NCBI GenBank assembly: GCA_001917535.1
Contig: MNEF01000116.1
Coordinates: forward strand, 54,077 to 118,076
Length of the DNA: 64,000 bases
Direction: 5' to 3'
Origin: Candidatus Rokubacteria bacterium 13_1_40CM_69_27
Lineage (GTDB): Bacteria; Methylomirabilota; Methylomirabilia; Rokubacteriales; CSP1-6
In this document: piece by piece, positions 32,967-42,093 of the stretch
How the letters are laid out: every line of letters begins with the position of its first letter
How positions within the stretch are numbered: position 1 is the first letter of the stretch
Made by a program: the position numbers and the translations under genes
The notes under the pieces: generated by a model
The model's input: only the letters and a program-made list of their open reading frames with translations
The model's database searches: none
Told to the model about the DNA's origin: nothing

Positions 32967-33632
32967 TCATTTGACCTTGTCCGGCTCCACCGCTTTGCGC
33001 AGGGCCTCGACCTCGGCTTCCAGCGCGCGGATGCGCTCCATGAGCTGCTCGATCGTCTTGGTCACCGGATCCGGCAGGTCCGTCTGGTTGAGGTCGATCT
33101 CCCCGGTCACCCGCCGACCGTCCTTGTATGCTACGCGGCCGGGCACGCCGACCACAACCGAGTTGGGAGGCACTTCACGGACGACGACGGAGCCCGCCCC
33201 GATCCGGCTGCCGTCGCCGATCACGAAGCCGCCGATGATCTTGGCGCCGGCACCGACCACGACGTTGTCGCCGAGCGTAGGGTGACGCTTCTCGCGCTTG
33301 AGACTCGTGCCCCCCAGCGTGACCCCATGGAGCAATGTGACGTTCTCCCCGACCTCCGCCGTCTCACCGATGACGACGCCCATGCCGTGGTCGATGAAGA
33401 GGCCGGGCCCGAGCCTGGCGGCGGGATGGATCTCGATTCCGGTCAGGAAGCGCGCGATGTGGGAGACGAAGCGGGCGGTGGTGCGCCAGCCGCGGTTCCA
33501 GATGCGGTGGGCCACGCGATGGAACGCGACCGCGTGCACCCCCGGATAGCACAGCACCACCTCGAACGCCGACCGCGCGGCGGGGTCGCGCTCAAGCGCC
33601 GCTCTGACGTCGCCTCGGATCGCGTCAAACAT
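32967..33632 (-). CDS. cysE: Serine O-acetyltransferase
   Basis: [69 protein letters not shown]. Confidence 0.93.
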
Positions 33633-34005
33633 CGCGCCCTCGCCGGCTCAGGCAGTGGCGGGCGGCGGCGCGGAGCGCGCCGGCCACCACGTCGGCGGCA
33701 TGCTTGCGGTCGTCGGGCAGGCCGTCCAGCGCGCGCTCGATCGCCTCGGCCTTGACGTGGGCCAGATCCTCGACGGCGCGCCCGGCCATGATCTCGCTGG
33801 CCACGCTGGCCGCCGCGATCGTCGGTCCGCACCCGTACGTCTGGAAGCGCACCTCGATCGCCCGCCCCTCGCGCACGCGGAGGAAGAAGCGGGCCAGGTC
33901 GCCGCACCCCGCGTATTCGTCCTCGCCCACCCCGTCGGGCTCCCGCATGAGCCCGGCGTTGCGCGGGTTCAGGAAGTGGTCGATCAGCGTCGGGCTGTAC
34001 CTCAC
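33625..34005 (-). CDS. NifU/IscU-like Fe-S cluster scaffold protein
   Basis: [42 protein letters not shown]...[16 protein letters not shown]...AARHCL; three scaffold Cys; GTG start. Confidence 0.87.
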
Positions 34006-35159
34006 GCCGCTCCCACCGGCAGCGCCTGGCGCAGCTTGCGGACGATCGGCTCCACGCACTCGATGACGTAGTCGATGTCGTCGGCCGTGGTGGACCGCCC
34101 CAGAGAGAACCGGACCGCACCCATCGCCCACTCGATCGGCACCCCCATCGCGACCAGAACGTAGGACGGCTCGACGTTGCCCGAGGTGCAAGCCGAGCCG
34201 GCCGACACGGCGACGCCCTTCAGATCGAGCCCCAGCACGATCGATTCGGACTCGACGTGGCGAAAGACGATGTTGTCGGTCCCGGGCAGGCGCTCGGTCG
34301 GGTGCCCGTTCAACCGGACCTCGGGCACTCGGAGCCGGATGCCCTCCCACAGGCGGTCGCGCAGCGCCCGTGCCCGCTCGGCTTCCGCGGGCATCTCGCG
34401 CGTCCGGACCTCCACCGCCTTGCCGAAGCCGACGATGCCGGGCACGTTCTCGGTCCCCGCGCGCCGGCGCCGCTCGTGTTCGCCGCCGTGCTGGACGGCC
34501 ACCATCTTCGTGCCCCGGCCGATGTAGAGGCCGGCCACACCCTTGGGGCCGTAGATCTTGTGGGACGAAAAGGACATGACGTCGATGCCCAAGGCGTGGA
34601 CGTCGATCGGGATCTTGCCGAACGTCTGGACGGCGTCGACGTGAAAGACCAGGCCGTGCTCGCGGGCGAGGGCGCCGATGGCGGCCACCGGCTGGACTGT
34701 GCCCACCTCACTATTGGCGTGCATGATGGTGATGGCGATCGTGTCCGGCCGGATGGCCCGCTTGACGTGGTCCGGATCGACCATGCCGTACTGGTCGACC
34801 GGCAGGTACGTCACGTCGAATCCCTGTGCCTGCAGGGCCTGGGCGGTGCGGAGGACGGCGTGGTGCTCGATCTGGGAGGTGATGATGTGCCCCCGCCCCC
34901 GGGCGAGCGCCAGCCCTTTCACCCCGAGGTTGTCGGACTCGGTGCCGCCGGAGGTGAAGACGATCTCCTCGGGAACAACGCCGAGGAAGCGCGCGATGCG
35001 CTCGCGGGCGGTGTCCACCCCCTCGCGGGCGGCGCGGCCGAAGCCGTGCACGCTCGACGGGTTGCCGAAGACCTCGTTGAAATACGGCAGCATCTCGGCG
35101 ACGACCTCCGGATGCACCGGCGTCGAGGCGTTGTGATCGAGGTAGACGCGCCGGGTCAT
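34002..35159 (-). CDS. nifS: Cysteine desulfurase (NifS/IscS class I) with intact catalytic residues
   Basis: VYLDHNASTPVHPEV...IEHHAVLRTAQ...SFSSHKIYGPKGVAGLY (PLP Lys)...GSACTSGNVEPSYVL (catalytic Cys). Confidence 0.94.
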   Translation of the reverse strand: MTRRVYLDHNASTPVHPEVVAEMLPYFNEVFGNPSSVHGFGRAAREGVDTARERIARFLGVVPEEIVFTSGGTESDNLGVKGLALARGRGHIITSQIEHHAVLRTAQALQAQGFDVTYLPVDQYGMVDPDHVKRAIRPDTIAITIMHANSEVGTVQPVAAIGALAREHGLVFHVDAVQTFGKIPIDVHALGIDVMSFSSHKIYGPKGVAGLYIGRGTKMVAVQHGGEHERRRRAGTENVPGIVGFGKAVEVRTREMPAEAERARALRDRLWEGIRLRVPEVRLNGHPTERLPGTDNIVFRHVESESIVLGLDLKGVAVSAGSACTSGNVEPSYVLVAMGVPIEWAMGAVRFSLGRSTTADDIDYVIECVEPIVRKLRQALPVGAA

Positions 35160-35200: not shown

Positions 35201-35524
35201 ATGGATCTCGCCAGAAAAAAATTCGGCGTCCTGCTGTCCACCGGACCCGATCATCCGAACCTCGGGACCGCGGTGGGGCTGGCCCAGGCGGCCCTGGACC
35301 GAGGCGCCGGCCTGTACCTTTACCTCATCGACGACGGCGTCCGGGCGCTCGACGACCCCCGCATCCGCGGGCTGGCCGGGCGCGGCGCCAAGCTCTTCGT
35401 ATGCGCCTACGGATGCCAGAAGCGTCGGATCCCGCTGGAGGACTCGGCCGACCTCACCTACTGCGGCCTGGTCGTGCTGACGGACATCATCAACGGGACC
35501 GATCGCTTCGTCGCCCTGAATTAG
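35201..35524 (+). CDS. DsrE/TusD-like sulfur-relay family protein
   Basis: KFGVLLSTGPDHPNLGTAVGLAQAALDRGAGLYLYLIDDGV...AKLFVCAYGCQKR. Confidence 0.75.
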   Translation: MDLARKKFGVLLSTGPDHPNLGTAVGLAQAALDRGAGLYLYLIDDGVRALDDPRIRGLAGRGAKLFVCAYGCQKRRIPLEDSADLTYCGLVVLTDIINGTDRFVALN

Positions 35525-35525
35525 T

Positions 35526-35903
35526 TTGTCTGGCCGAGCCGGCCGTGTGTCCGACGAGCAGCCCGTCCTCGTGCTCATCTCGTGCGACCCGCGCGTCACC
35601 CATCGGGCGTTCGAGGCGATGCGCATCGGGATCGGCGTGGTGTCCGGCGAAAACGCGGTCACCTTCGTCCTCACCGATGGCGCCGTCCATCTGCTCGACG
35701 GCGACACCGAGGAGCTGATCGACGGCGACGAGATCGCCAAGTTCCGCAGCACGCTCAAGCAGCTGGGGATTCCGTTCCACGTCGAGGAGACCGCAGTACC
35801 CAAGGATCCTGACTGGAACACCGACGGGCATCCCGTCGTCGTGGTCACGCGCGACCAGATCACGGAGCTCGTCGGGCAGGCCCGCCGCTCCATCGTCTTC
35901 TGA
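35526..35903 (+). CDS. DsrF/TusC-like sulfur-relay family protein
   Basis: QPVLVLISCDPRVTHRAFEAMRIGIGVVSGENAVTFVLTDGAVHLL; alternative GTG start near 35550. Confidence 0.65.
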   Translation: MSGRAGRVSDEQPVLVLISCDPRVTHRAFEAMRIGIGVVSGENAVTFVLTDGAVHLLDGDTEELIDGDEIAKFRSTLKQLGIPFHVEETAVPKDPDWNTDGHPVVVVTRDQITELVGQARRSIVF

Positions 35904-36130
35904 TGGCCGCCGCCGTCCTGCACCTGCTCAAGGGAGACCACCCGGCGGTGGCGCTGGCGACCATCGCCCGCCAGGTCCAGGCCGGCGACGAGGTCGCCGT
36001 GGCGCTCCTCCACGGCGCCCCCGCTCCGTCGCTGCCCGCGCGCGTCCGTGTTCACCGCGTCCCCGACGACGTCTCCTACGAGCAACTCCTCGAGAAGATC
36101 TTCGCCGCCGACCAGGTCATCACCTGGTAG
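35903..36130 (+). CDS. DsrH/TusB-like sulfur-relay family protein
   Basis: MAAAVLHLLKGDHPAVALATIARQVQAGDEVAVALLHGA...SYEQLLEKIFAADQVITW; C-terminal Trp typical of the family. Confidence 0.65.
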   Translation: MAAAVLHLLKGDHPAVALATIARQVQAGDEVAVALLHGAPAPSLPARVRVHRVPDDVSYEQLLEKIFAADQVITW

Positions 36131-36315: not shown

Positions 36316-36519
36316 TCATCGGTTCCGGTACTCCTCGAGCCACGCCATCTGGATTCTCTCGAGAACACCCTCGGTGGAGACTTTGGGATCGTCGCTGAAG
36401 CCGGGAAGCTCCGTGACCCACCGGTGGAGGTCGGTGAACCGCACCGTGAGCGGATCGGTGTCGGGAAACTTCTCGCTCAGCGCGATCGCGATGTCCTCGG
36501 CGTCCCGCCACTTCATCAT
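36316..36519 (-). CDS. iscX: Fe-S assembly protein IscX
   Basis: MMKWRDAEDIAIALSEKFPDTDPLTVRFTDLHRWVTELPGFSDDPKVSTEGVLERIQMAWLEEYRNR. Confidence 0.93.
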   Translation of the reverse strand: MMKWRDAEDIAIALSEKFPDTDPLTVRFTDLHRWVTELPGFSDDPKVSTEGVLERIQMAWLEEYRNR

Positions 36520-36842
36520 TTGGGGATCTCCACCACCACGTCGCCGCGTACCACGGCCTGGCAGCCGAGGCGCGAATGGATGGTGAGCCCCTCCGCCGTG
36601 TCCAGGCGGTCCTCCTCGTCCGGCTGCATCTCGGAGAGGTTGTCCTCGCCTTCCTTGACGACCACGTGGCAGGTCGTGCACGCGCAGTTGCCGCCGCAGT
36701 TGTGCTCGAGATGGATGTCGTTCGCCAGCGCAATGTCGAGCAGCGACCCGGCCAGACCGTGATCGGCCAGCGGGTACTTCTCGTCATCGACCTCCACCGT
36801 GATGTTCATCGGCAGGAAGGTCACTTTGTGAACCGCCATCAC
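36516..36842 (-). CDS. fdx: ISC-type [2Fe-2S] ferredoxin
   Basis: LLDIALANDIHLEHNCGGNCACTTCHVVVKEGEDNLSEMQPDEEDRLDTAEGLTIHSRLGCQ. Confidence 0.94.
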   Translation of the reverse strand: MMAVHKVTFLPMNITVEVDDEKYPLADHGLAGSLLDIALANDIHLEHNCGGNCACTTCHVVVKEGEDNLSEMQPDEEDRLDTAEGLTIHSRLGCQAVVRGDVVVEIPK

Positions 36843-38731
36843 TGATTCCCCTGAGCGGGGGGATGCTCCCCCCTCTCGACTCCCCCGGCCATGATCTCGG
36901 CTGCCCGCTGGCTGCCGAGCGCCTGCCGGAGCGCCGTGTCCATCATGACCTCGGCCAGGTGCTCGGTCGCGCGGTTCAGCTCGGTGGTCGTTTCGCGAAT
37001 CAGATCCGGCTCGCTCGTCTCCCGAGCCCTCGCCAGCGCCTCCAGGGCCGCGGTGACCCGCTGCCGCTCCTCGGCGGAGACGAGGTCGCCCGCCTGCTTC
37101 AGCGCCCGGCGGACGTGGGTCATCACCGTGTCCGCCTCGTTGCGCACCTCGATGAGCATGCGCGCCTCGACGTCGGCCTCCGCGTACTGGAACGACTCCT
37201 CGACCATGCGTCCGACGTCGGTTTCGCTGAGGCCGTAGGTCGGCTTCACCTCGATCGAGGCCGCCTTGCCGGTCCTCAGCTCCTTGGCCGTGACATTCAA
37301 GATGCCGTTGGCGTCGATGAGGAACGTCACCTCGATCTTGGGCATGCCGGCCGGCATGGGGTCGACGCCCCGCAGCTCGAACCGCGCCAGCGACCGGCAG
37401 TCCTTGGCCAGCTCCCGCTCACCCTGCACGACGTGCATGTCCACGACCGTCTGGCCATCCACCGACGTGGTGAACATCTCCCGCGCGCTGGTGGGGATCG
37501 TCGTGTTGCGCGCGATGAGGACGCTGACGACGCCCCCCAGCGTCTCGATGCCCAGCGACAGCGGCGTCACGTCGAGCAGCAGCATGTTGGTGATGCCGCC
37601 GGCCAGGATATGGGCCTGCACCGCGGCGCCCAGCGCCACCACCTCGTCCGGGTTGAGCTGGCTGTGGGGTGTCTGGCCGAACAGCTCCTGCACACGTCGC
37701 CGCACCAGGGGTATCCGCGTGGATCCCCCCACGAGCACGACCTCGTCGATCTGGTCCGGCCGCAGGCCGGCGTCGGCCAGCGCCATCCGACAGGGGCCGA
37801 GAGTCTTCTCCACCAGAGAATTCACGAGCCGCTCGAGCTCGGCCCGGGTGATCTCCCGATGGTAGGTGAAGTCTTCGAAGGGGATCACCAGCCGCGTGCG
37901 CTCCTCGGCGCTGAGACGGATCTTGGCGGCTTCGGCCGCCAGCCTCAGCTCCTGCATCACCTCGCTGTCGTGGCCGAGATCGACCGGTCGGCACGCCAGC
38001 TCCCGGTGGTGGCGGGCCTGGATGTCTTCCAGGAGCCACAGCATGAGCACGCGATCGAAGTCGTCGCCACCCAGGTGCGTATCACCGTTGGTCGCCAGCA
38101 CCTCGAAGATCCCATCCTTGACGCGCAGGATCGAGATGTCGAACGTGCCTCCGCCGAGGTCGTAGACGGCGACCACGCCCTCGCGCAGCCGATGGAGCCC
38201 GTAGGCCAGCGAGGCCGCCGTGGGCTCGTTCACGATCCGCACGACGTCGAGTCCGGCGATGCGGCCGGCGTCGCGGGTGGCCTGGCGCTGGCTGTCGTTG
38301 AAGTACGCCGGAACGGTGATGACCGCTTTCTCCAGCGGCTCGCCGAAATGACCTTCCGCCCGCTCCTTCAGCGATCGAAGGATCACCGCCGACACCTCGG
38401 GCGGCGTGACCTCGTGGCCGCCCACGGCGAGGCGGACGATGCCGTCGGCCGGACGGATCGCGAACGGAAAGTACCGGAGCTCGTCCTTCACATCCTCGTA
38501 GCCCCGCCCCATGAACCGCTTGACGGAGTAGACGGTGGATTGCGGCCGCCGGGCCAGCTGACGCTTGGCCGCCTCGCCCACCAGGATGCCGGCGGGCGTG
38601 AAGGCCACCACCGAGGGCAGCAGCATTCGGCCCTCGGCGTCGGGAATCACCCGGGGCAGACCGGTCTCCTCGTCGACGTACGCGACCAGGCTGTTGGTGG
38701 TACCCAGGTCAATGCCGATGATGCGCGACAT
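36839..38731 (-). CDS. hscA: Hsp70-type Fe-S chaperone HscA
   Basis: MSRIIGIDLGTTNSLVAYVDEETGLPRVIPDAEGRMLLPSVVAF...VYDLGGGTFDISILRVKDGIFEVLATNGDTHLGGDDFD. Confidence 0.95.
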   Translation of the reverse strand: MSRIIGIDLGTTNSLVAYVDEETGLPRVIPDAEGRMLLPSVVAFTPAGILVGEAAKRQLARRPQSTVYSVKRFMGRGYEDVKDELRYFPFAIRPADGIVRLAVGGHEVTPPEVSAVILRSLKERAEGHFGEPLEKAVITVPAYFNDSQRQATRDAGRIAGLDVVRIVNEPTAASLAYGLHRLREGVVAVYDLGGGTFDISILRVKDGIFEVLATNGDTHLGGDDFDRVLMLWLLEDIQARHHRELACRPVDLGHDSEVMQELRLAAEAAKIRLSAEERTRLVIPFEDFTYHREITRAELERLVNSLVEKTLGPCRMALADAGLRPDQIDEVVLVGGSTRIPLVRRRVQELFGQTPHSQLNPDEVVALGAAVQAHILAGGITNMLLLDVTPLSLGIETLGGVVSVLIARNTTIPTSAREMFTTSVDGQTVVDMHVVQGERELAKDCRSLARFELRGVDPMPAGMPKIEVTFLIDANGILNVTAKELRTGKAASIEVKPTYGLSETDVGRMVEESFQYAEADVEARMLIEVRNEADTVMTHVRRALKQAGDLVSAEERQRVTAALEALARARETSEPDLIRETTTELNRATEHLAEVMMDTALRQALGSQRAAEIMAGGVERGEHPPAQGNQ

Positions 38732-39305
38732 GCTCTCCCGTGCCTTCTTCCTCGCCCAGCGCCTGCCCCAGATCCTCGATGACGGTCTTGAGATAAGCCC
38801 GGGTGGCGAGTCCCTGTTTGAGGAGCTCCCGGAGCTTCGGACGCCCCGAGTCGTCGGCGGCGTCCCAGGCCGCGCTGAGCGGTCCGGCCAGCTTCGCGTC
38901 TGCCTCCCGCAGCCGCTCCCGCAGCCGCTCCCGCTGGGCCCGCAGCGTCGCCCGCGTCCCCTCATCGAGCCCGCCGGCCTTGGCCTCGGCCAGGGCCTCC
39001 TGGATCTCGAACATCTCCTCGAGCAGTTCGGGCGGCGCCTGGGCCTTGACCGCCGCCCCTTCCTTCGTCTCCCGTCCCTCTTCCAGGCGGACGAGGTACT
39101 CGATCCGCGCGACGGGGTCCCGCAGCGTCCGGTAGGCGGCGTTCAGCCGCGCGGAGGCGTCCAGCGCGCTGGCCTGCTCGTCGGGTGGGGCGCCCGCGTG
39201 GAAGTCTGGGTGGTAGCGCCGCGACAGCTCGTAGAACTGCCGCTGCAGCTCCGCCACGTCGATGCCCAGCCGACGCGGCAACCCGAATACTTCGAAGTAG
39301 TTCAT
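38709..39305 (-). CDS. hscB: Fe-S J-domain co-chaperone HscB
   Basis: MNYFEVFGLPRRLGIDVAELQRQFYELSRRYHPDFHAG (HPD motif). Confidence 0.94.
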   Translation of the reverse strand: MNYFEVFGLPRRLGIDVAELQRQFYELSRRYHPDFHAGAPPDEQASALDASARLNAAYRTLRDPVARIEYLVRLEEGRETKEGAAVKAQAPPELLEEMFEIQEALAEAKAGGLDEGTRATLRAQRERLRERLREADAKLAGPLSAAWDAADDSGRPKLRELLKQGLATRAYLKTVIEDLGQALGEEEGTGEHVAHHRH

Positions 39306-39533: not shown

Positions 39534-39863
39534 CTACGCCGAGAACGACGTCCCGCAGCCACAGGTCGACTTCGCGTTCGGATTGACGAACGTGAAGCCG
39601 CCCGTCAGCCCCTGCTGCACGTAGTCAAGCATCGTGCCGGTCAGGTAGAGGTAGCTCTTCTTGTCGCACACGACCTTGATGCCGTCGATCTCGAGCTCCC
39701 GGTCGTGGGGCCCGATCTCGGTGTCGAACTCGAGGGAGTACGACATTCCGGAGCACCCCCCGCCCTTCACCCCCATGCGCAGGAAGACGTTGTCGGGCAG
39801 GTTCTGTGCCCGCTTGAGCTCTTTCACCTGCTGGACGGCCGCCTCCGACAGTGACAGCGCCAT
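39534..39863 (-). CDS. iscA: HesB/IscA/ErpA-type Fe-S carrier
   Basis: FLRMGVKGGGCSGMSYSLEFD...NPNAKSTCGCGTSFSA. Confidence 0.95.
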   Translation of the reverse strand: MALSLSEAAVQQVKELKRAQNLPDNVFLRMGVKGGGCSGMSYSLEFDTEIGPHDRELEIDGIKVVCDKKSYLYLTGTMLDYVQQGLTGGFTFVNPNAKSTCGCGTSFSA

Positions 39864-39887: not shown

Positions 39888-40295
39888 TTATTTCACAGCC
39901 GCTTCGGCGCGCGCGCCATGCTTGGTCCTGTAATCCGCCAGCGCCGCCTTGATGGCATCCTCGGCCAGCACCGAGCAGTGGATCTTGACGGGCGGCAGCT
40001 TGAGCTCGTTCACGATGTCGGTGTTCTTGATCTTGGCCGCGTCCTCGATCGTTTTGCCCTTGAGCCACTCGGTAGCCAGGCTCGACGACGCGATGGCGCT
40101 CCCGCAGCCGAACGTCTTGAACTTGGCGTCCTCGATCAGCCCGGTCCCGGGATTCACCTTGATCTGGAGCTTCATGACGTCGCCGCACTCCGGCGCGCCC
40201 ACCAGCCCCGTGCCCACGTGCGCCGTCTCCTTCGAGAACGACCCGACGTTGCGCGGGTTGTTGTAATGATCGACAACCTTTTCGCTATAGGCCAT
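39888..40295 (-). CDS. iscU: Fe-S scaffold IscU
   Basis: MAYSEKVVDHYNNPRNVGSF...GAPECGDVMKLQIKV...TFGCGSAIASSSLATEWLKGKT...LPPVKIHCSVLAEDA. Confidence 0.97.
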   Translation of the reverse strand: MAYSEKVVDHYNNPRNVGSFSKETAHVGTGLVGAPECGDVMKLQIKVNPGTGLIEDAKFKTFGCGSAIASSSLATEWLKGKTIEDAAKIKNTDIVNELKLPPVKIHCSVLAEDAIKAALADYRTKHGARAEAAVK

Positions 40296-40306: not shown

Positions 40307-41533
40307 TTACTCAGCCTTCCACTGGATGGACTTGATGTCCACACCCTCTTTCGCCAGCTCGTAGAGCGGCGACATCTCTCGGAGTCGCTTGACGACCTCG
40401 ATCGTCCGCCGGCCCACGAAGTCGACTTCCTCCTCGATGTTGAATCGGTGCAGGCTGAACCGGATGGACGAGTGCGCCAGCTCCGCGCTCGCCCCCAGCG
40501 CGGCGATCACGTAGGACGGCTCCAGCGTCGCCGACGTGCACGCCGAGCCCGACGACAGCGCCGTCTCCTTGTTCAGCCCCATCAGCACCGACTCGCCCTC
40601 CACGTAGGCGAACGAGATGTTCAGGTTCTGGGGCAGCCGCCGCTCCGGGTCCCCGTTGAGGTACGCCTCCTCGACGTTGGAGAGGATCATGTCCTGCAGC
40701 TTGTCCCGGAGCTTCGCCAGCCGCGCACTCTCCTCCGGCATGACCTCCGCGCTGATCTCGGCCGCCTTGCCGAAGCCCACGCAGAGCGGCACCGGCAGCG
40801 TCCCCGACCGCATGCCCCGCTCGTGGCCGCCCCCGTCGATCAGCGCGGTCAGACGCACCCGCGGCCCCTTGCGCCGCACGTAGAGCGCGCCCACGCCCTT
40901 GGGCCCGTACATGAGATGCGCCGTGCACGAGAGCAGGTCGATGCCCAGGGCCTCGACGTCGACGGGGATCTTGCCCACCGCCTGGGTGGCGTCGGTGTGG
41001 AAGATGATCCCCTTCTCCTTCGCGAGCTTGCCGATCGCGGCGATCTCCTGGATGGTCCCGATCTCGTTGTTCGCGAACATGACCGAGATGAGGATCGTCT
41101 TGTCCGTCAGCGCCTTCTTGATGTCGTCCACGTCCACGAGCCCGTTGGGTTGCACCGGCACGGTGGTCACCTGGAAGCCCTGCCGCTCCAGGCGCTTGCA
41201 CGTGTCGAGGCCGGCCCGCTGCTCGATCACCGTGGTGACGATGTGGTTGCCCTTCTCCCGGTACATCTCGGCGACGCCCTTGAGCGCCAGATTGATCGAC
41301 TCGGTGCCGCCGGAGGTGAAGACGAGCTCCTTGGGGTCCCGGGCGCGGACCAGCTTCGCGATCTGGGCCCGCGCGGCGTCGCAGGCGGCCTCCGCTTCCC
41401 AGCCGAAGGGATGGTTGCGGCTCGCCGGATGCCCGAACCTCTCCGTGAAGTACGGCAGCATGGCCTCGACGACCCGCGGGTCGCACGGCGTGGTCGACTG
41501 CGCGTCCAAGAAGATCGGAAACTTCAAAGCCAT
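40307..41533 (-). CDS. iscS: IscS homolog lacking the PLP lysine and active-site His (putative pseudo-cysteine desulfurase)
   Basis: FLDAQSTTPCDPRVVEAML...VIEQRAGLDTCKRLE...HTDATQAVGKIPVDVEALGIDLLSCTAHLMYGPKGVGALYVRR...GSACTSATLEPSYVI...SPLYELAKEGVDIKSIQW; codons checked on the nucleotides. Confidence 0.92.
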   Translation of the reverse strand: MALKFPIFLDAQSTTPCDPRVVEAMLPYFTERFGHPASRNHPFGWEAEAACDAARAQIAKLVRARDPKELVFTSGGTESINLALKGVAEMYREKGNHIVTTVIEQRAGLDTCKRLERQGFQVTTVPVQPNGLVDVDDIKKALTDKTILISVMFANNEIGTIQEIAAIGKLAKEKGIIFHTDATQAVGKIPVDVEALGIDLLSCTAHLMYGPKGVGALYVRRKGPRVRLTALIDGGGHERGMRSGTLPVPLCVGFGKAAEISAEVMPEESARLAKLRDKLQDMILSNVEEAYLNGDPERRLPQNLNISFAYVEGESVLMGLNKETALSSGSACTSATLEPSYVIAALGASAELAHSSIRFSLHRFNIEEEVDFVGRRTIEVVKRLREMSPLYELAKEGVDIKSIQWKAE

Positions 41534-41554: not shown

Positions 41555-41986
41555 TCAACTCTTGATGGCCAGCAACTCGGGTACGTCCTCGCCGACCAGT
41601 TCGGCGAGGCTCATCGTGTCCAGCATCTGACTGATCGCCGCCTGGATCTTCTGCACCGGGCGCCGCAGATTGCACCGCTCGATCTGGGGGCAGTCGCTGT
41701 CCTCCAGGCAGCTCACGATGCTGATGGGCCCCTCCAGGGCCCGGATCACCTGGCCGACCGTGATCTCGCGGGGCCGGCGCGCCAGCACGTAACCACCCTT
41801 GGGTCCGTTCTGGCTCGCGATCAGCCGCTGCTTGGCGAGCCGCTGGAGGATCTTGGCCAGGAGTTCCGGCGGAATCCCGAACTCCTCGGCGATCCGCTTC
41901 GCGCTCGCGACCCCCAACTGCTCGTGAGCGGCGATGTAATGGATCGCCATCAGGCCGTAGTCGGCACGCTTGGTGAACCGCAGCAT
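41555..41986 (-). CDS. iscR: Rrf2-family regulator, IscR-like
   Basis: MLRFTKRADYGLMAIHYIAAHEQLGVASAKRIAEEFGIPPELLAKILQRLAKQRLIASQNGPKGGYVLAR...CLEDSDCPQIERC (C-x5-C-x5-C). Confidence 0.92.
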   Translation of the reverse strand: MLRFTKRADYGLMAIHYIAAHEQLGVASAKRIAEEFGIPPELLAKILQRLAKQRLIASQNGPKGGYVLARRPREITVGQVIRALEGPISIVSCLEDSDCPQIERCNLRRPVQKIQAAISQMLDTMSLAELVGEDVPELLAIKS

Positions 41987-42093
41987 CTTGGTCTGGCCGC
42001 TCCCCCAGTATACCCGACCGTTTCTATCGGCGACCTTTTCAGTCGGATTCTGACACGCGGCACGCCCCATGTCAAGGTGCCGATTTCCTTCCC

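Follow-up and report, generated by a model that had tools for sequence, protein, structure and literature searches.

The complete isc operon in the window (the whole stretch of 64,000 nucleotides analysed here, from Candidatus Rokubacteria bacterium 13_1_40CM_69_27, contig MNEF01000116.1) encodes an IscS that has neither the lysine forming the Schiff base with PLP nor the catalytic histidine. With moderate confidence, we regard this lysine-less IscS as a catalytically dead, IscU-docking subunit that would receive its sulfur from a linked NifS or from sulfide; it is probably a docking partner and not the enzyme of its annotation. In E. coli and in mitochondria, persulfide making and the holding of IscU are combined in IscS, and the two roles are hard to separate. 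The family to which the window belongs appears to have removed catalysis and kept the holding of IscU within a full operon, and the Lys, Met and Leu states are all alive in related genomes. Together they would form a natural separation-of-function series for the roles of IscS beyond catalysis, for the entry of sulfur and for the loop Cys as a cluster ligand. Our search of the open-access literature found no report of a bacterial lysine-less IscS, the only two cases being archaeal (Archaeoglobus fulgidus and Methanosarcina acetivorans), and no report of such a protein in an hscBA operon or with a captured transition.

The initial annotation of this DNA had noted the missing lysine and histidine and gave no strand for the gene, which lies on the minus strand (Table 1). 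Translation of this strand reads SCTAHLMYGPKG at the Schiff-base motif and IEQRAG at the histidine motif, and alignment with E. coli IscS placed Leu207 at the position of K206 and Gln105 at that of H104, in agreement with the annotation. The first motif, as also annotated, is DAQSTTP, with Ala where Tyr or His is usual. The cofactor-pocket Asp and Gln, the Asn, the Cys loop and the C-terminal tail had been described as kept, and this description was correct: T76, N155, D180, Q183, H205, T243 and R354 (E. coli numbering) are retained in the alignment, the tail is in place, and the loop (GSACTSATLEPSYV) carries C332, which corresponds to E. coli C328. The operon has the order iscR-iscS-iscU-iscA-hscB-hscA-fdx-iscX, with the lysine-less gene in the place of iscS, and the partner genes proved intact, as annotated, on the basis of profile matches (that of fdx being below the TIGR02007 cut-off).

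The lysine-less IscS aligned with E. coli IscS from end to end at 58% identity. Its fold, Cys loop, C-terminal tail and operon partners are common to E. coli IscS (PDB 3LVM, 1P3W) and human NFS1; compared with the E. coli protein it lacks K206 and H104 and has the further changes Y9>A, D79>I and V107>G. An AlphaFold model (pLDDT 86.8) had NFS1/IscS as the nearest PDB entries (TM 0.93), human NFS1 and E. coli IscS ranking best and A. fulgidus IscS lower. Among the profiles, PF00266 (aminotransferase class V fold) matched at 264 bits; NF010611, the NCBI equivalog for IscS cysteine desulfurase, accepted the protein (601.8 bits against a cut-off of 548), and TIGR02006 did not (583.1 bits against 643.2). 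Proteins that appear to be dead are annotated as desulfurases by current models.

A fold-type I PLP enzyme without its lysine has no internal aldimine and no base for chemistry at C-alpha. Since both the lysine and His104 are lost, cysteine desulfuration by this protein is very unlikely, and it is probably a pseudo-desulfurase descended from a catalytic IscS in its own isc operon. The initial annotation had proposed that the protein may be PLP-free. PLP may still be bound without a covalent link, because the substrate Arg and most of the pocket remain in place and because the A. fulgidus protein, which has K>D, is depicted with PLP in a crystal structure (PMC9769115). The PLP pocket is better kept than docking alone requires, so that the protein may still bind a ligand or carry out some residual chemistry.

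Table 1. Coordinates of the isc operon, the nifS block and the genes between them in the window.
Feature	Position	Strand	Evidence or remark
iscS without PLP lysine and catalytic His	40307..41533	-	ORF, alignment; 408 aa
Leu codon CTC at Schiff-base lysine position	40913..40915	-	residue 207 = E. coli K206
Gln codon CAG at His104 position	41219..41221	-	residue 105 = E. coli H104
iscR, Rrf2 family regulator	41555..42070	-	PF02082
iscU scaffold, three Cys conserved	39888..40295	-	PF01592; CCC in 16/16 loci
iscA	39534..39863	-	PF01521
hscB co-chaperone	38709..39305	-	TIGR00714 above cut-off
hscA chaperone	36839..38731	-	TIGR01991 above cut-off
fdx, 2Fe-2S ferredoxin	36516..36842	-	TIGR02007 match below cut-off; operon position
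iscX	36316..36519	-	PF04384
Small ORF between isc and nifS blocks, DsrH/TusB-like by position only	35903..36130	+	no Pfam match; position conserved in relatives
Small ORF, DsrF/TusC-like by position only	35550..35903	+	its Cys not conserved
DsrE-family protein, three invariant Cys, candidate sulfur carrier	35201..35524	+	PF02635; CCC in all relatives read
nifS, intact NifS-type class I cysteine desulfurase, candidate sulfur donor	34002..35159	-	K, H and loop Cys present
NifU_N protein, two of three scaffold Cys (HCS -> HAA)	33625..34005	-	PF01592
cysE serine O-acetyltransferase, cysteine synthesis	32967..33632	-	TIGR01172 above cut-off

A pattern search of 95 genomes of the phylum found a non-lysine codon before YGPKG in 42, all within the window's own family of soil and groundwater bacteria. 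Every match listed encoded Leu (CTG or CTC), and the contigs with a match were named Candidatus Rokubacteria in their records. Protein searches of the unmatched genomes added nine lysine-less members of the family, seven with Met (HM[IL]YGPKG, codon ATG; G070-G073, G079, G081 and G085) and two with Leu (G065 and G067). A lysine-less IscS was thus present in about 51 of the 57 family genomes; the remaining ones had NifS or other homologues only, with no IscS proper in the assembly. Reading the motifs from both searches, we found a lysine-bearing IscS proper in none of the 57. A sequencing or consensus error, which the initial annotation had already considered unlikely, is ruled out as the cause by the lack of the lysine in more than 40 genomes.

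Three sister families within the order (G092, G093 and G094) have the same operon around an orthologue that is 78-79% identical, with Lys (codon AAG) at position 206 and a His at 104. In a tree built with columns 104 and 206 removed, G092, G093 and G094 branched at the base of the tree and the lysine-less family formed one group (support 92), which places a single loss of the lysine at the root of the family. Met forms mostly branched first and Leu forms were mostly derived, with one Met form among the Leu forms, and the simplest codon path is likely to be AAG>ATG>CTG, in two single steps. The earlier statement that Lys to Leu needs several base changes is correct for the endpoints, but the likely path consists of single steps, and Met forms survive. 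Only four columns (E. coli 79, 104, 107 and 206) cleanly separated lysine-bearing from lysine-less IscS; two of these are catalytic residues and one adjoins H104, so the clean changes are few and centred on the active site.

The lysine-less gene has been kept under purifying selection as a member of the IscS lineage. Leu206, Gln104, H205, D180, Q183 and the loop Cys were invariant in all 44 aligned family genes, with synonymous codon changes at several invariant positions; the codons for Leu206 were CTG in 29 sequences and CTC in 15. R354 was retained in all 43 family sequences with a residue there. The median pairwise dN/dS (Nei-Gojobori, pairs with dS between 0.1 and 1.5) was 0.161 for this gene and 0.156 for iscU, and a value of 0.16, the same as that of iscU, rules out a pseudogene or relaxed selection. 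A replacement Schiff-base lysine, which the initial annotation had raised as a possibility, was rejected at the sequence level: no newly conserved Lys was found in the 44 aligned family genes, and every Lys conserved in the family is also K or R in active relatives.

An intact nifS, not mentioned in the initial annotation, is located about 6 kb downstream of the lysine-less iscS, and three small genes on the opposite strand separate the isc block from the nifS block. Among the 33 genomes for which both motifs were listed, 26 had the NifS lysine motif downstream of the lysine-less motif on the same contig and strand, at a spacing of 5.9-6.2 kb in 25 of the 26; in the remaining seven genomes, the contig stops before that distance is reached. 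In every relative read, the linked NifS had both K and H intact. The layout of isc operon, DsrE-like genes, nifS, NifU-like gene and cysE is conserved and also occurs around the lysine-bearing IscS of the sister families (the contigs of G093 and G094 stop short of nifS, and another G094 contig starts with the nifS block), so that a second desulfurase was present before the lysine was lost. This observation fits a loss of the lysine permitted by redundancy with NifS. Since the DsrE and NifU-like neighbours adjoin lysine-bearing IscS too, they were not recruited for the dead form, and a recruitment of the DsrE genes to supply a dead IscS is ruled out. The initial annotation had proposed that persulfide is supplied in trans. 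This is plausible, because every contig of sufficient length has an intact NifS linked at a distance of about 6 kb; conserved linkage does not by itself prove that NifS feeds IscU. The NifU_N protein beside nifS has HAA or HSA instead of HCS in relatives; with the third scaffold Cys missing, it probably does not work as a normal scaffold and is perhaps a sulfur acceptor.

Two genomes showed a natural deletion within the operon. In G068 (L038, contig C307) and G144 (L123), iscU, hscB, hscA and iscX are missing and the lysine-less iscS remains, together with iscA and fdx at one locus and fdx at the other; IscU proper was not found elsewhere in these two genomes. In both, the lysine-less IscS stops early (MSPLYD; MSPLCEPARKPPG) and is without the tail MSPLYELAKEGVDIKSIQWKAE that the other members keep. 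Because tail and iscU were lost together, these loci suggest that other members keep the tail because of IscU. Also, E. coli IscS without residues 376-404 does not bind IscU (PMC2854127). The survival of the gene without iscU implies that docking of IscU would not be its sole role, suggesting a further role beyond IscU.

In the mechanism we propose, the dimeric lysine-less IscS would be the platform where IscU docks, with Fdx, IscX and HscB. Its loop Cys could accept persulfide or transiently ligate the nascent [2Fe-2S] cluster, the latter on the model of the A. fulgidus IscS-IscU complex. The linked NifS would make the sulfur, with either the three-Cys DsrE protein or the NifU-like one as a possible relay, and sulfide would be an alternative input.

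The A. fulgidus IscS without this lysine, which the initial annotation had mentioned, is real: it has K>D, is reported to lack desulfurase activity and uses a Cys to ligate the [2Fe-2S] cluster that IscU carries (PMC7585200). Like the window's protein, A. fulgidus IscS (PDB 4EB5, 4HVK; D199K mutant 4R5F) has no PLP lysine, keeps the loop Cys and pairs with IscU. However, the lysine is replaced by Asp there and by Leu or Met in the window's family, the Arg354 position is Leu in A. fulgidus and Arg in the window, the two proteins are about 47% identical, and no full isc operon has been described for A. fulgidus. In our tree, in which A. fulgidus IscS itself was not included, the window's protein nested with E. 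coli-type IscS. Judged by these comparisons, A. fulgidus IscS is a functional parallel and not the closest relative. A loss of lysine independent of A. fulgidus is strongly indicated, because the window's protein falls among E. coli-type IscS and the lysine was lost within its own order. IscS1 of M. acetivorans likewise lacks the essential lysine, other intact desulfurases being present in the same genome (PMC7585200); unlike the window's protein, it is archaeal, has not been characterised and has no hscBA operon.

Four Leptospirillum-type genomes (Leptospirillum sp. CF-1 not among them; loci L057, L095, L098 and L116) had, as in the window, an iscRSUA-hscBA-fdx-iscX operon with a K>L IscS. 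This IscS is more decayed than that of the window, with D180>N, Q183>Y and H104>I in addition, and no linked NifS was seen. A PF00266 search found a lysine-bearing class I desulfurase in one of the four genomes (L267) and no lysine-bearing class V desulfurase in G105, G124 and G132, the evidence from G132 being weak as it is small (1.4 Mb). The only other close homologue in these three has Arg (SS[AGS]R.GGPPG; L268-L270), and the next PF00266 match read in the Leptospirillum-type genomes was a different aminotransferase (L272). Loci L263-L266 and L268-L271 belong to the Leptospirillum-type genomes G105, G124, G132 and G123. For Leptospirillum sp. CF-1, the same operon and no other desulfurase gene were reported, and the activity of extracts was attributed to IscS (PMC9628965); the word lysine is absent from the text of that paper. 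The K>L genomes bear on this published claim. Taken alone, the tree did not reject a common origin of the K>L forms of Rokubacteria and Leptospirillum (AU p 0.48), but the presence of Lys in the sister families favours independent losses. We tentatively suggest that a complete bacterial ISC system may run on a dead desulfurase, with NifS-delivered sulfur in Rokubacteria and with sulfide only, and no cysteine desulfurase, in Leptospirillum. A second lysine-less desulfurase-like gene was also present in Leptospirillum-type sequence (10553-11689 of L252/L295), and nearby genes that look like ATP sulfurylase and an APS-reductase-like flavoprotein hint at a role in sulfur metabolism.

Other explanations for the window's protein were considered. 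The lysine-less IscS and IscU could build clusters from free sulfide, with the linked NifS serving other purposes, e.g., tRNA thiolation. In E. coli without iscS, H2S restores Fe-S assembly in a manner that needs IscU and HscBA (PMC13015791). The Leptospirillum-type genomes are also consistent with this route: in three of the four, IscS is dead and the search for lysine-bearing class V desulfurases found none, the operon is full where readable, and three of the four have a full-length match to MnmA, below the curated cut-off. However, the intact NifS and cysE conserved beside the operon in the window's lineage favour cysteine as the source, and we consider it unlikely that sulfide is used in this way. 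Alternatively, the linked NifS might form a heterodimer with the lysine-less IscS, in which NifS would provide catalysis and its partner the IscU-docking surface and the loop. Class I desulfurases are dimers; the two proteins are 48% identical, linked and co-conserved, and translations of the linked NifS lack the long C-terminal tail of IscS. Such a pairing is nevertheless doubtful, as both genes were already together when both had the lysine, and they lie in separate blocks with oppositely oriented genes between them.

Arg354 and nearly the whole PLP pocket are invariant in the window's family, unlike in Leptospirillum and the Nitrospirota group described below. This feature would suit a protein that binds PLP, or PLP and cysteine, without turnover and regulates IscU or IscR by cysteine supply, but structural PLP explains the conservation of the pocket equally well, the protein has no regulatory domain, and we know of no precedent for such a role; we regard it as highly improbable. 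It is scarcely credible that the protein has remained an active desulfurase with a different base, or that the gene is a pseudogene in decay. The first of these is favoured by the NF010611 score and by a report of desulfurase activity for Leptospirillum sp. CF-1 extracts, iscS being described there as the only desulfurase gene (PMC9628965), but that assay used whole extracts, no replacement Lys is conserved in the family, and the His is lost as well; the second is excluded by the dN/dS given above.

Lysine-less IscS was also found beside iscU in a large group, mainly of Nitrospirota (L043-L158). There the locus consists of Rrf2-iscS-iscU only, and the protein has K>Q, T76>A and R354>V with an invariant loop Cys. 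Unlike the window's protein, it has thus lost Arg354 and Thr76, and it belongs to a separate, fully supported clade in which K>R and K>H forms are included. An intact desulfurase was present elsewhere in most genomes of this group. A single origin of all lysine-less forms is ruled out by the position of the K>Q clade away from that of the window, which requires at least two losses. Several minor observations concern other homologues. A further homologue in the window's own genome (L003, C2:16918-17970) has Asp in place of the lysine (SSNDVYGPPG) and A. fulgidus IscS as its best PDB match, and S[SA]ND.YGPPG homologues comprise L003, L317 and L318; with L003 counted, the class I homologues of the window's genome are two without the lysine and one intact. 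In a Nevskia MAG (L070), an in-frame stop falls exactly at the lysine codon of iscS (AH*IYGPKG), indicating either a pseudogene or an assembly error. Finally, Arg at the lysine position (HRFYGPKG) was observed at L074, L100, L119, L146, L148 and L152, from Verrucomicrobiales, Zixiibacteriota and other lineages.
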